Of a stretch of DNA of 22,029 bases, positions 8,585 to 15,890 are shown in pieces. How positions within the stretch are numbered: position 1 is the first letter of the stretch; every line of letters starts with the position of its first letter. A program made the translations under genes and the position numbers. Source of the stretch: a virus; IMG/VR virus record IMGVR_UViG_3300008117_001099, positions 1 to 22,029 of that record; one strand, 5' to 3'. The notes below the pieces were generated by a model. That model was not told the origin of the DNA, searched no databases, and worked only from the letters and a program-made list of their open reading frames with translations.

Positions 8585-9048
8585 CAGTCAGGAAACGAGT
8601 ACCCACGCAACGATCACAAGATCGTGCCCACAAAAGAAAGAAGTGTATAGATTGTGTCGATGAAGGAATCACTACAGCGCGTAAAGCACCGCATCCTGGC
8701 CCTAGATGCGCGACTCATCACCGCGCTAAGCGAGCTAAACGGAGTAGTGCCACCCGCGAACAGCGTTGGCTCCAAGTCTACGGCATCACCGGAGAAGAAT
8801 ACTGGGCCATCCACGAGTACCAAGGTGGCTGCTGCTATATTTGCAGGAGAGCTAAAGGGATCGGCAGGAAAAGACTGTCGGTAGATCACTGCCACACCAC
8901 CGGCATCGTTCGGGGACTTCTCTGTCAGCCGTGTAACCGTGACGTATTAGGTCATGCGAGGGATGATGTTGAAGTTTTCCAACGTGCTATAGAGTATCTG
9001 AATAATCCACCAGCTGTTGATGTGATAGGATGGAGGGAGGTTCCATGA
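8581..9048 (+). CDS. Recombination endonuclease VII-like (HNH-type) nuclease
   Basis: A 155-residue protein of the endonuclease VII family, which resolves branched DNA such as four-way junctions. The core is YGITGEEYWAI, CCYICRR (Cys84/85 and Cys88), the catalytic DHCHTTG (102-108), and RGLLCQPCNRDVLGHARDD (Cys115 and Cys118 complete the zinc site). An extra N-terminal knuckle, Cys22-x2-Cys25...Cys43-x2-His46, lies in a basic region. GTG 8581 overlaps the preceding stop, and the end overlaps the primase start as ATGA. Role: probably debranching replicated phage DNA before packaging. An overlapping 76-codon ORF in another frame is ignored. Confidence 0.88.
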   Translation: MTVRKRVPTQRSQDRAHKRKKCIDCVDEGITTARKAPHPGPRCATHHRAKRAKRSSATREQRWLQVYGITGEEYWAIHEYQGGCCYICRRAKGIGRKRLSVDHCHTTGIVRGLLCQPCNRDVLGHARDDVEVFQRAIEYLNNPPAVDVIGWREVP

Positions 9049-9425
9049 GTTTAATAGTACAAACAATCTTACGGTACTGCCCGCAATTCGATCCCCCAAA
9101 TGATAACGGACGCGATTGGACACCATGCCTGTGCCCGTTCCACGGTGACGAAAACAGGTCAGCATCTATTTCGTATAGGCATGATGCGTTTCACTGCTTC
9201 GCTTGCCCAGTCAAGGGTGACGTGATAGCAATAATCAGAGAACAGGAAGGGTGCAGTTTTGCAAAAGCTAAGTCAATCGCAGAAGGACTATCTGAGGGAG
9301 GCAACGTCACGGTATCACAACGCACTAGCAGACAGCCCCGCCAGCGAATATTTGCAGACGAGGGGATTGGGTTGGGAGTCGATTCAACCGGCGGTGAACA
9401 GGTTCAGACTAGGATACGTTGGTGA
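9045..9425 (+). CDS. DNA primase, CHC2 zinc-finger half
   Basis: A 126-residue protein carrying a DnaG-type CHC2 zinc finger: Cys30-Pro-Phe-His33, then Cys51-Phe-Ala-Cys54, followed by the typical [18 protein letters not shown] helix. This domain recognises template and helps initiation of primers. ATG 9045 follows GGAGGGAGG and overlaps the endonuclease VII stop. Only about residues 1-80 look like primase; the remainder to 9425 is an out-of-frame reading of the next gene. The Toprim half is in the +1 frame from 9259, so the primase is either two polypeptides or joined by a frameshift between 9235 and about 9330. Confidence 0.82.
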
Positions 9426-9906
9426 CCCGCTACCCGGCCATGAAATGTATAAAGGTTATATGGCTATCCCGTATCTACGCTGGTCTGCTGACAAAGAGTG
9501 GGCTGTGGTGTCGATGAGGTTCCGCCGCCTAGATGACGGGAAACCAAAATATATGACGTTGGCTGGGGATCGTCCCCGACTGTTCAACACTATGGCGTTG
9601 CTTAAGGACACCGCTAATGTGGCTATCACCGAGGGTGAGATTGATGCCATTACTGCCACGGTGTGTGGTCTACCGGCTGTGGGTGTTCCTGGGGCGCAGG
9701 CTTGGCAGCCGTGGTTTCGGGAGCCGTTCCTAGGTTACCGCAACGTGTATGTGTTGGCTGACGGTGACGATGCCGGTATGCAGTTCGCTACCCAGGTGGT
9801 TTCGTCGCTGCCTAACGGTAAAATTATTCCTATGCCGTCAGGTTCGGACGTGAATTTGTTGGTGGCTGAGAAGGGTAAGGATGCCTTGTTGGAAAGGATC
9901 ATGTGA
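9259..9906 (+). CDS. DNA primase, Toprim catalytic half
   Basis: A 215-residue Toprim-domain protein: the helical lead-in [15 protein letters not shown] is typical after the primase zinc finger. Then come YMAIPYL, the first Toprim acid in TEGEIDA (Glu125), and DGDDAG (Asp168, Asp170) for metal binding. It synthesises RNA primers for the phage fork. TTG 9259 has AGGAAGGG (9244-9251) with 7-base spacing, so independent translation inside the zinc-finger gene is plausible; a +1 (or -2) shift would fuse the two. A TAA at 9232 limits the frame upstream. The total of about 300 residues matches small phage primases. Confidence 0.82.
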
Positions 9907-12461: not shown

Positions 12462-12615
12462 ATATATGACACCAGAAGATGCAACCCTAGCAGGGAACTA
12501 CTCTGACTGGGTTGAAGATGAAGAATACACTGCTGAAGAAACAGAATACTGCTGCATGTGTGGGTTCGCTGTGTACGACAATTACTGTGACGAATGTGAG
12601 GAATACGTTGACTAA
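12454..12615 (+). CDS. Small acidic zinc-ribbon protein (53 aa)
   Basis: A 53-residue highly acidic protein with C-C-x-C (CCMC) near residue 34 and CDEC near residue 45-48, a minimal zinc ribbon. ATG 12454 overlaps the previous gene; its GGAAAGG is too close, so ATG 12466 (49 residues) may be the real start. It lies directly before the ribonucleotide reductase and overlaps its TTG start by 8 bases. A link to the reductase, for example as a redox partner, is suggested only by position; the CxxC pairs look metal-binding rather than thioredoxin-like. Confidence 0.62.
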
Positions 12616-13117
12616 CTTTGGGCCAACCGGACAGCTGGTGTACGACCGGACATACTCGCGGGTTAAGCCGGATGGGACGAAAGAAACTTGGCCCGAAACT
12701 GTGAGGCGGGTGGTGGACGGCAACCTTGCACTGGTCGATAAGAAGTATGAGCTTCCCGGTGAGCGGGAAACCCTGGCCCGGTTCATGGAGGAATTTAAAA
12801 TCCTGCCAGCAGGCAGGCACATCTGGGCATCCGGTGTCAAGAACGCTGAACATCTGTTCAACTGCTGGGTGGCAGGGTGGACCGACCGACCGGCAGACCA
12901 CTTCGCATTCACGTTCATGCGGCTGATGGAAGGCGGCGGAGTAGGCGCATCGTACTCTAATAGGCACCTATCTGCATCACTACCGACCGGACACCGTTCA
13001 CTTCAACCGGGTGTACGATATCTCCCGCATCCGGCACGCCGGGGCGAAACTGAAAACCTTCGGAGGTACAGCGTCAGGTCCGCTGCCGTTAGCAAACATG
13101 CTCACACTGGTCAGTGA
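12608..13117 (+). CDS. Class II ribonucleotide reductase, N-terminal part (frame-disrupted)
   Basis: The N-terminal part of an adenosylcobalamin-dependent, monomeric ribonucleoside triphosphate reductase. TTG 12608 follows GAGG (12598-12601) with 6-base spacing and gives [30 protein letters not shown] and FNCW (Cys86, the partner of Cys119 in the Lactobacillus leichmannii enzyme) and [10 protein letters not shown] (110-119) are family hallmarks. Homology stops near residue 125 (about 12985); the rest to 13117 is an out-of-frame reading of the second part. The continuation lies in the +1 frame, and about 79 residues between the catalytic cysteines are missing relative to the Lactobacillus enzyme. 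The product may be joined by frameshift, be an inactive remnant, or reflect an assembly deletion. Confidence 0.75.
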
Positions 13118-14450
13118 AATTCTGTCCAAACGTGCAGATGGTGTCAACAAGCTGGATGGTTTGTCCGCAATGGAAATTGACCACTGTATCGCGCAGTGTG
13201 TGGTGGCCGGCGGTGTGCGTAGGTCTGCCCGTATGGCTATGATGCATTGGGAGGACCCGCAGATCATGGAGTTCATCGAATGTAAAACCAAGTCGGGTTC
13301 CCATTGGACAACCAACATCAGTGTGGAGGTTGATGAACGGTTCTGGTATCAGGCACGGCAAGGTGAAGCGTGGCACGCTAAGAAGGTGTTGGACGCTATC
13401 GCTGAGGGTGCGTTGCATAACGGTGAACCCGGCTTCTGGGACTCATCATACTCCAATGAAGGTGAACCTAACAGGGTGGTTTGCACCAATCCTTGTGGCG
13501 AGATTACCTTGCAAGAGTGGGAGCCGTGCAATCTGGGTCACATCAATCTGGCTGCGTTTGTTGGTGGGCGTAACGATGGCGTAGATTTCCCTAGCATGTT
13601 GTTGGCGCACAAGCTGATGACTAGGTTCCTCATCAGGGCAACTTTCTCCAAGGTCAGTGACCCTAAGAGTCGGGAAGTGCTGGACCGTAACCGGCGTATC
13701 GGTGTAGGGCATTTCGGTGTAGCATCATATCTTGCTATGACCGGAACTAAATACTCTGATGCGCCTAAGGATCGGCAGTTCCGTGCCATGCTGATGGAGT
13801 TGGCTAAGGCTGTTGACCTTGCCGCTATTGAGTTCAGCCACGATCTGCGAATCCCGGTGCCGGTGAAGAAACGGACAATAGCACCTACCGGTACTATCGC
13901 TAAGATGCCGGGTGTGTCTGAGGGTGTCCACCCTATCTTCGCCAAATATTTCCTGCGGCGTGTCCGGTTCAACAAGCTGGGTGACGCTATGGAACAGGTG
14001 GAGGATTTGAGGGCGCAAGGATATAAGGTGGAGGACGATTTGTATGCACCTAATACTGCCGTGGTGGAGATTCCCACCAAGGATATCCTGATGCAGGAAG
14101 TTGAGGACAGGTTTGGTTTGGAGGTTGCGGAGGATATCGTGGAAGCTGCGGACGATCTGCCGTTGCACGCCATGCTAGGGTTCCAAGCCCTGTACCAGGA
14201 GTTGTGGGCAGACAACGCTGTCTCCTACACAGCCAACTTCCATCCCGACAAGTACACAGCGGAACACATTGGCCGTGAAATTCTATCGTATGCTGGTAGG
14301 ATTAAGGGCGGTACAATTTTCCCTGAAGCGTCTATGCCTCAGTCACCTTACGAACGCCTAGAGCGGTGGGAGTATGAGTCTGCTGTTGCTAAGCAGGTTG
14401 CTGATGGTATTGACGAAAACTGCACCACCGGGGCTTGCCCGGTACGGTGA
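13011..14450 (+). CDS. Class II ribonucleotide reductase, C-terminal catalytic part
   Basis: The main barrel and C-terminal tail of the B12-dependent reductase, which makes deoxynucleotides. From GTG 13011 (479 codons): [11 protein letters not shown], then N160-P-C162-G-E164 and Cys173. These have the same spacing as Asn406, Cys408, Glu410 and Cys419 of L. leichmannii RTPR, so radical cysteine, general base and one redox cysteine are present. The tail C471-TTGA-C476 matches the external thiol-relay pair. Homology already begins upstream, at about 12981 ([15 protein letters not shown]). No good ribosome site precedes 13011, so it likely depends on the first part. All key residues are retained, which argues against long decay. 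Confidence 0.8.
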
Positions 14451-15050: not shown

Positions 15051-15890
15051 TTGAAAATAGGTAGTTTATGCACAGGGTATGGCGGGCTAGACATGGCAGT
15101 GGAGTCTGTACTTGGCGGCGACATGGTGTGGTACTCAGAGTTTGACAAACCGGCATCACAGCTTCTCGCACACAGATTCCCAGGTAAAAATAATCTTGGT
15201 GATTTAACTAAAATTAATTGGTCACAGGTGGAACCTGTTGACATTTTGACCGGCGGCTACCCGTGTCAACCCTTCAGCAACGCAGGCAAGAAATTAGGAG
15301 AAGATGACCCACGACACTTATGGCCGTACATACGTGACGCCATTCGCATACTACAGCCAAGAATCTCAATCTTTGAAAATGTGTCAGCCCACCTTAACAG
15401 AGGATTCTCTTCCGTTTTGCGGGACTGTGCCGAAGACGGGTTGGATGTTAGATGGTGTGTTGTACGGGCATCCCAGGCAGGTGCCCCCCACAAACGTGAA
15501 AGAGTGTTCTTCATTGTTGCCAACCCCTACAGCGAGAGACTACAAGGGAATTGCATTCAACCCAGCGGACCTGTCCAGGTTGGTGAACGCTCTGGTGTGG
15601 TTGACTGGGTATCGGGTGGGTTCCAATGGGGAGAGTACACCGAAGCGATAAGCCAATGGGAAACAATTCTGGGGAGAGCAGCCCCATACCCTGTTGAAGA
15701 TAACGCCAACGGCAGACCTAGACCCCGGGCGGTTTTCTACGAGTGGATGATGGGGCTGCCTGAAGGTTGGGTGACAGACCCCGCTATTGGGTTGGCTTGG
15801 GGGCACCAGATAAAGATGTGTGGTAATGGTGTTGTTCCTCAGCAGGCTGAATTTGCTTTACGACTCCTGTTAGATGAGAAAGAGGATTAA
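15051..15890 (+). CDS. dcm: DNA (cytosine-5) methyltransferase
   Basis: A 279-residue C5-cytosine methyltransferase. Motif I is LCTGYGGLDMA (6-16, SAM binding), motif IV GGYPCQPFSNAGK (nucleophile Cys72), motif VI FENV (108-111), motif VIII SQAGAPHKRERVF (141-153), the phage-typical EWMMGLPEGWV (231-241), and motif X GNGVVPQQA (258-266). The recognition region between VIII and X is short. No restriction gene is nearby, so it probably protects phage DNA from host restriction. TTG 15051 follows AAAGGGG (15039-15045); the upstream extension to 15003 crosses the hairpin. The stop overlaps the polymerase start as TAATG. A second ORF is embedded at 15304-15651 in the +1 frame. Confidence 0.92.
   Translation: MKIGSLCTGYGGLDMAVESVLGGDMVWYSEFDKPASQLLAHRFPGKNNLGDLTKINWSQVEPVDILTGGYPCQPFSNAGKKLGEDDPRHLWPYIRDAIRILQPRISIFENVSAHLNRGFSSVLRDCAEDGLDVRWCVVRASQAGAPHKRERVFFIVANPYSERLQGNCIQPSGPVQVGERSGVVDWVSGGFQWGEYTEAISQWETILGRAAPYPVEDNANGRPRPRAVFYEWMMGLPEGWVTDPAIGLAWGHQIKMCGNGVVPQQAEFALRLLLDEKED
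15304..15651 (+). CDS. Candidate overprinted ORF inside the methyltransferase gene
   Basis: A 115-codon ORF in the +1 frame of the methyltransferase gene. ATG 15304 is directly preceded by AGGAGAAG (15296-15303, tight 3-base spacing). The product contains FCGTVPKTGWMLDGVLYGHP, then VPPTNVKECSSLLPTPTARD followed by YKG. From memory, these match a recurring phage protein pattern (SG-T-x-PKSG-M-x-G-x-LY, then SSLLPTPTARD-x-KG) found beside or fused to methyltransferases. In the main frame the same bases encode motifs VI to VIII (FENV to APHKRERVFFIVANP). Either both frames are used, or the database pattern itself arises as the shadow of conserved methyltransferase motifs. Expression is unproven. 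Confidence 0.35.
   Translation: MTHDTYGRTYVTPFAYYSQESQSLKMCQPTLTEDSLPFCGTVPKTGWMLDGVLYGHPRQVPPTNVKECSSLLPTPTARDYKGIAFNPADLSRLVNALVWLTGYRVGSNGESTPKR

Follow-up and report, generated by a model that had tools for sequence, protein, structure and literature searches.

Two-polypeptide C5-cytosine methyltransferases (MTases) are already known, and the beta gene of one of them, M.EcoHK31I, reportedly lies nested within the alpha gene in another frame, an arrangement said to have been described by Lee et al. in 1995. M.EcoHK31I and M.EaeI consist of two polypeptides, motifs I-VIII and X lying in the large alpha subunit and motif IX in the small beta subunit, and both polypeptides of M.EcoHK31I are required (PMC3404938). 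M.AquI is likewise a split C5-MTase, with one subunit carrying motifs I-VIII and the other the distal variable region and motifs IX-X (PMC3404938). Within the open-access subset of the literature we found no paper on phage MTases with nested +1 subunits. The locus analysed here lies in a window of 22,029 nt of IMGVR_UViG_3300008117_001099. We propose, with a probability of roughly 0.78, that its MTase gene is a nested, dual-coding gene for a two-subunit C5-cytosine MTase whose beta subunit would give DNA recognition in trans.

A nested +1 reading frame in the MTase gene

We refer to the MTase frame of the window as f0 and to the +1 frame as f1. The f0 product is matched by PF00145 (profile search, E=2.4e-35) and is a C5-cytosine DNA MTase with motifs I, IV (PCQ), VI (ENV), VIII, IX and X in order; all of motifs I-VIII, IX and X are in f0 (Table 1). 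The match of M.HhaI to alpha is limited to residues 5-156. The initial annotation had described an ORF in the +1 frame of this gene, and we find it as described: P0001 lies wholly within the f0 ORF, and its ATG falls inside the coding region of motif V, with the reported AGGAG ahead of it at a short spacing. The frame shifts that had been read base by base are also correct, since f1 SLKM is the shifted reading of f0 IFENV, and f1 VPPT...SSLLPTPTARDYKG that of f0 GAPH...ANPYSERLQG.

Table 1. Coordinates of the MTase gene, its motifs and the nested ORF within the window
Feature	Position	Strand	Remarks
Alpha, C5-cytosine MTase ORF, f0	15051-15890	+	279 aa; TTG start after AAGGGG; TAA end
f0 motif IV PCQ (catalytic Cys)	15261-15269	+	From sequence
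AGGAG, putative Shine-Dalgarno of nested ORF	15296-15300	+	3 nt before ATG 15304
Beta-like subunit P0001, nested f1 ORF	15304-15651	+	ATG; 115 aa; stop 15649-15651
Beta N-terminal block PFAYYSQESQSLKM ('FAYYDPDTRSWK' motif)	15340-15381	+	f0 position-3 substitution lowered in relatives
f0 motif VI ENV	15375-15383	+	f1 reads SLKM across (I)FENV
f0 motif VIII GAPHKRER	15480-15503	+	From sequence
Beta block SSLLPTPTARDYKGIAFNPADLSRLVNALVWLTGYRV, putative target-recognition part	15508-15618	+	Between motifs VIII and IX
Alpha low-confidence linker, residues 163-186	15537-15608	+	Within stretch selected in f1; no target-recognition domain
f0 motif IX region YEWMMGLPEGW	15738-15770	+	From sequence
f0 motif X GNGVVPQQA	15822-15848	+	From sequence

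The PKTGWM-type pattern, a phage segment that the initial annotation had associated with MTases, belongs to a real phage family tied to these enzymes. An HMM search with the 115-aa product returned PHROG 1008 ('DNA methyltransferase'), which matches P0001 residues 2-84 (profile 61-147, E=2.4e-9) and also the window f0 C-terminus (profile 222-318, E=1e-33); this profile of 329 positions thus holds in one piece the parts that the window divides between f1 and f0. Searching phage genomes with P0001 gave 172 records, chiefly Mycobacterium and Gordonia, and at the inspected loci the +1 ORF overlies MTase motifs VI-VIII, as the pattern family does essentially everywhere examined. PHROG 1008 matches 9 of 10 divergent +1 proteins tested, and the tenth matches PHROG 16143. 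Pfam and NCBIfam have no model for any of seven +1 proteins tested, and beta has no relative among solved structures. Existing annotations treat the two frames unevenly: only the MTase frame is annotated in Papez, both frames are in JewelBug (gp81/gp80, with a 179 nt overlap), and ReT1v-2 (L007) and DosHalletts (L009) have the +1 ORF as 'hypothetical protein', with the MTase frame missed or truncated. The idea that the database matches are generally shadows or frameshift products finds no support here, as they include separately annotated genes and belong to PHROG 1008, though often only one of the frames is annotated.

Two further genes of the window lie over two ORFs in different frames. A class II ribonucleotide reductase occupies 12512-13117 and 13011-14450, with the RNR_Alpha domain first and then the insertion and barrel domains; a single ribonucleotide reductase feature in Mycobacterium phage Goose covers the second ORF, and the frame break near 13.0 kb may be genuine or may stem from a sequencing error. 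A DNA primase lies over the overlapping ORFs 9030-9425 (CHC2 zinc finger) and 9259-9906 (Toprim).

Stop avoidance and selection in two frames

We fetched 65 diverged viral C5-MTases by their f0 sequence, comprising 36 short-spacing and 29 long-spacing loci, and computed the expected number of f1 stops by synonymous-codon resampling. Over codons -50..0 relative to motif VIII the short-spacing loci have 0 f1 stops against 84.3 expected, and over codons -40..0 the long-spacing loci have 0 against 34.7, which makes 0 observed against about 119 expected for both spacing types together. After clustering at 70% identity, the expected numbers are 27 (short) and 16 (long), again with 0 observed. Farther upstream in the short type, f1 stops are about as frequent as expected (51 observed vs 39 expected, 42 vs 36 and 13 vs 14), as they are just before the long-type onset (30 vs 22), and stops in the third frame (f2) are at the expected level. 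A control MTase family (Escherichia phage 12474III-like, 30 loci) has 53 f1 stops against 57.8 expected and hence no avoidance. A Streptococcus-phage MTase family was tried as a control and dropped, as it parsed in 4 loci only and itself seems to have a +1 protein (PHROG 16143). After motif VIII, 0 f0 stops were observed against 140 expected, a figure that is partly biased because the loci had been chosen for long f0 tails and that we take as supporting evidence only. The onset of avoidance in the short type coincides with an f1 ATG that has AAGG, AGGA, GGAG or GAGG upstream in 27 of the 36 loci (16.3 expected), and the long-type onset has in most cases a GTG, which is preceded by an AGAGGA-like sequence and often follows immediately on an f1 stop. 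The conserved ATG is lacking in L013.

The closest relative of the window, and the sole close one found, is L011 (IMG/VR), whose f1 product is 72% identical to P0001 over 115 aa. Position 1 of f0 codons is position 3 of f1 codons. Counted at f0 positions 1, 2 and 3, the window-L011 substitutions are [15,13,45] in 15051-15303, [11,3,14] in 15304-15420, [9,5,9] in 15421-15516, [14,4,2] in 15517-15651 and [15,9,37] in 15652-15870, so that 14/4/2 in the fourth stretch stand against 30/22/82 outside. Because the substitution positions switch in this way, 15517-15651 evolves as f1 coding sequence and both flanks as f0; f1 is 93% identical there and f0 64%. Third-position changes of f0, which the initial annotation had singled out for a check, are abnormal in 15517-15651, numbering 2/45 vs 82/157 outside (Fisher P=8e-10), and amount to 23/71 over 15304-15516 (P=0.006). 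The window f1 is stop-free and under purifying selection beyond chance, which the control family is not. Neither of the two outcomes named in the initial annotation as speaking against its reading, matches to shadow ORFs only and normal synonymous variability of f0, was found.

The frame switch of selection is seen also in many other pairs. The L016-L020 pair has [16,6,33] upstream, [41,7,6] after motif VIII and [5,2,13] past the f1 end, the L018-L019 pair [22,4,2] after motif VIII, and the JewelBug-L072 pair [70,23,13]; locus pairs in these substitution profiles are not independent, related loci being non-independent samples. The same profiles show that +1 is also constrained ahead of motif VIII, at the blocks 'FAYYDPDTRSWK / TWNxxRxVWE' and 'WPxSGM', and in the 'FAYYDPDTRSWK' block of the long-spacing type f0 position 1 substitutions exceed those at position 3.

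These data bear directly on whether the nested frame might be a pure shadow ORF, a +1 reading that only reflects codon conservation in the MTase, with no translation or selection of its own. Shifted motifs VI and VIII do yield SLKM and LLPTP-like strings, the phage-genome matches sit within MTase genes, and the f1 amino-acid constraint over motifs VI-VIII is weak, so that the 'PKTGWM' likeness is to a large extent a side effect of codon conservation in the MTase. But the switch of frame rules out a shadow for the part after motif VIII, the complete lack of f1 stops where about 119 were expected is set against normal f2, normal upstream f1 and a control family with no avoidance, and some phages carry motifs IX-X in +1 itself. 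With stop frequency and substitution pattern both unlike what the MTase frame by itself would produce, we give the shadow reading next to no chance. Judging from the constraint, f0 would be the older frame over motifs VI-VIII, with the beta N-terminus overprinted on the MTase, and after motif VIII (LLPTP onward) +1 is probably the original frame of the target-recognition domain (TRD), with the f0 linker overprinted there. The proposal that the whole pattern family was born by overprinting of MTase motifs thus fits the first ~70 residues, as far as motif VIII, but not the part from LLPTP onward, where +1 is the more constrained frame.

Another reading invokes programmed +1 ribosomal frameshifting near motif VIII, which would produce an alternative C-terminus and no separate subunit. 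It would suit loci such as JewelBug, L013 and L021 (type C below), in which f0 ends after motif VIII and +1 carries the remainder, and +1 selection is indeed strongest past motif VIII. A slip at motif VIII, however, does not need a +1 frame that is stop-free 40-50 codons upstream, as it is here, and an MTase made by frameshifting would have +1 open only past the slip site; nor does frameshifting agree with the start codon and Shine-Dalgarno-like sequence at the +1 onset, often right after an f1 stop, or with the constrained +1 blocks ahead of motif VIII. The early onset of avoidance and the frame's own start codon therefore favour independent initiation, and we consider frameshifting unlikely.

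Layouts across genomes and the proposed enzyme

Three layouts were distinguished among the parsed viral loci. Type A, that of the window, has motifs IX and X both in f0 (33 loci); type B has IX in f1 and X in f0 (11 loci); and type C has both in f1 (20 loci), with f0 usually ending ~20 codons past motif VIII. Two loci related to the window, L013 and L021, whose best f0 segments are 71% and 64% identical to it, are of type C. L021 has a single +1 protein whose N-terminal part matches P0001 (5e-16) and whose C-terminal part matches window f0 residues 178-275, motifs IX-X (5e-27), so that what is one protein in L021 is spread over two frames in the window. Nesting is likewise found in chromosomal actinobacterial MTases, an Acinetobacter plasmid, a Bacteroides plasmid and a Paenibacillus phage. 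As the actinobacterial MTases have a common +1 protein, nesting is not confined to phages.

Several groups of loci have features of their own. MTases from Leucobacter, Microbacteriaceae and other actinobacterial genomes (L109, L118, L120, L123, L125, L133, L135, L141 and L156) have in common a +1 protein with LFRTPLASDASRGGE...ALSHQ(I/V)ID. In another group (L068, L070, L078, L080, L081, L085, L086, L087 and L091) +1 stays open across nearly the whole MTase gene, for 465 aa in L085 for example; motif IX is read in +1 there and motif X in f0. The +1 frame of the Streptococcus family contains LSDILEEQVDERFFLSEEMTRKL, which is homologous to a segment read in-frame in the MTase of a Staphylococcus phage (65% over 26 aa, 2e-7); in Streptococcus phages L174, L186 and L199 an apparent +1 protein (PHROG 16143, E=1e-56) includes a DILEE...LSEE segment, which is in-frame in Staphylococcus phage L177. 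The Streptococcus/Staphylococcus MTase family may be a separate instance in which such nesting arose. Between motifs VIII and IX, Gudmit (L003), ReT1v-2 (L007), DillTech15 (L008), Yorick (L004), L066 and L057 have arrays of 'LLPTPxAxDxxG' units that vary from one to another and lie in part in +1, in part in f0, and the Gudmit +1 LLPTP repeats match in-frame DillTech15 repeats (4e-8). These arrays suggest that the putative recognition region is shuffled in modules.

The AlphaFold model of the window f0 protein has a mean pLDDT of 86.8, the only segments with values under 50 being residues 163-168 and 170-186, and shows the M.HhaI fold (TM 0.72) minus the TRD. With no TRD in the alpha model and the linker inside the f1-selected stretch, any VIII-IX region that the enzyme has would come from the +1 protein. 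When the beta of L013, a type C locus, was modelled alone, the structure was of low confidence and had no match in the PDB, and the TRD function proposed for beta is therefore based on its position. In the two-subunit enzyme that we propose, f0 would give alpha, with a catalytic domain of motifs I-VIII, a disordered linker and then motifs IX-X, and f1 would give beta through its own initiation at ATG 15304. The N-terminal ~70 residues of beta would read across motifs VI-VIII, and its C-terminal part (LLPTPTARDYKG...LVNALV) would take the place of the TRD between VIII and IX that is absent from alpha. We infer that beta is translated and docks on alpha, where it would supply DNA recognition in trans, the pair being the active enzyme.

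Beta could instead be a small protein with a role of its own, perhaps in regulation or anti-restriction, that is translated and selected but nested by chance. A protein that has no solved relative and no Pfam or NCBIfam model among those tested, and whose TRD function is deduced from position only, leaves room for this, but alpha lacks its TRD at exactly that place, types B and C carry motif IX or IX-X in +1, so that the +1 protein must belong to the enzyme, and M.EcoHK31I offers a biochemical precedent (PMC3404938). We regard a separate protein as quite improbable. The return of motifs IX-X to f0 in the window and the f1 stop just ahead of them might also mean that the window +1 ORF is a fossil, a decaying remnant of a split enzyme whose TRD was replaced by the f0 reading. 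This is very improbable in our view, given the purifying selection on f1 between the window and L011 in 15517-15651, the predicted disorder of the f0 version of that stretch, and the stability of the type A layout in 33 viral loci.

Comparison with described MTases

The loci examined are evidence that the nested two-subunit kind is far more widespread than the described examples. On balance we favour, though with clear reserve, the broader view that they form a large, mostly unrecognised class of dual-coded C5-MTases with a +1 specificity subunit, present in phages as well as bacteria (Actinobacteria, Firmicutes, Proteobacteria and Bacteroidota) and occurring in three layouts (TRD only, TRD+IX or TRD+IX+X in the nested frame), with interconversion between sister clades. 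If true, this class would be among the largest same-strand overlapping-gene families in prokaryotes, one-frame annotation would miss half of each enzyme, and many annotated MTases would be half-enzymes, which could account for inactive cloned MTases and unpredictable specificity. The M.EcoHK31I curiosity of 1995 would then become a case of widespread, ancient and long same-strand dual coding that is datable and comparable across layouts. Because the frame boundaries shift between sister phages (window and L011 vs L013 and L021), the evolution of overprinting would be directly observable.

Compared with the described systems, the alpha of the window shares its catalytic fold with the single-chain M.HhaI, but unlike M.HhaI it has no TRD; a disordered linker, read from the bases of the beta gene, stands there instead. 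The layout of M.AquI fits JewelBug gp81/gp80, L005, L013, L021 and others; the window differs from it in that alpha runs through motif X and keeps IX-X, and the nested ORF stops before IX. The window resembles M.EcoHK31I in having an ORF for a small subunit nested within alpha in another frame and under selection. The layout of M.EcoHK31I itself, with IX in beta and X in alpha, fits S72 (L006), DosHalletts, the L068-L091 group and the Acinetobacter plasmid L180. Unlike M.EcoHK31I, the enzyme here belongs to a phage, no restriction partner was seen within the window, and its beta comprises only the overlap with motifs VI-VIII and the VIII-IX region. The window differs from both M.AquI and M.EcoHK31I in keeping motifs IX-X in alpha.
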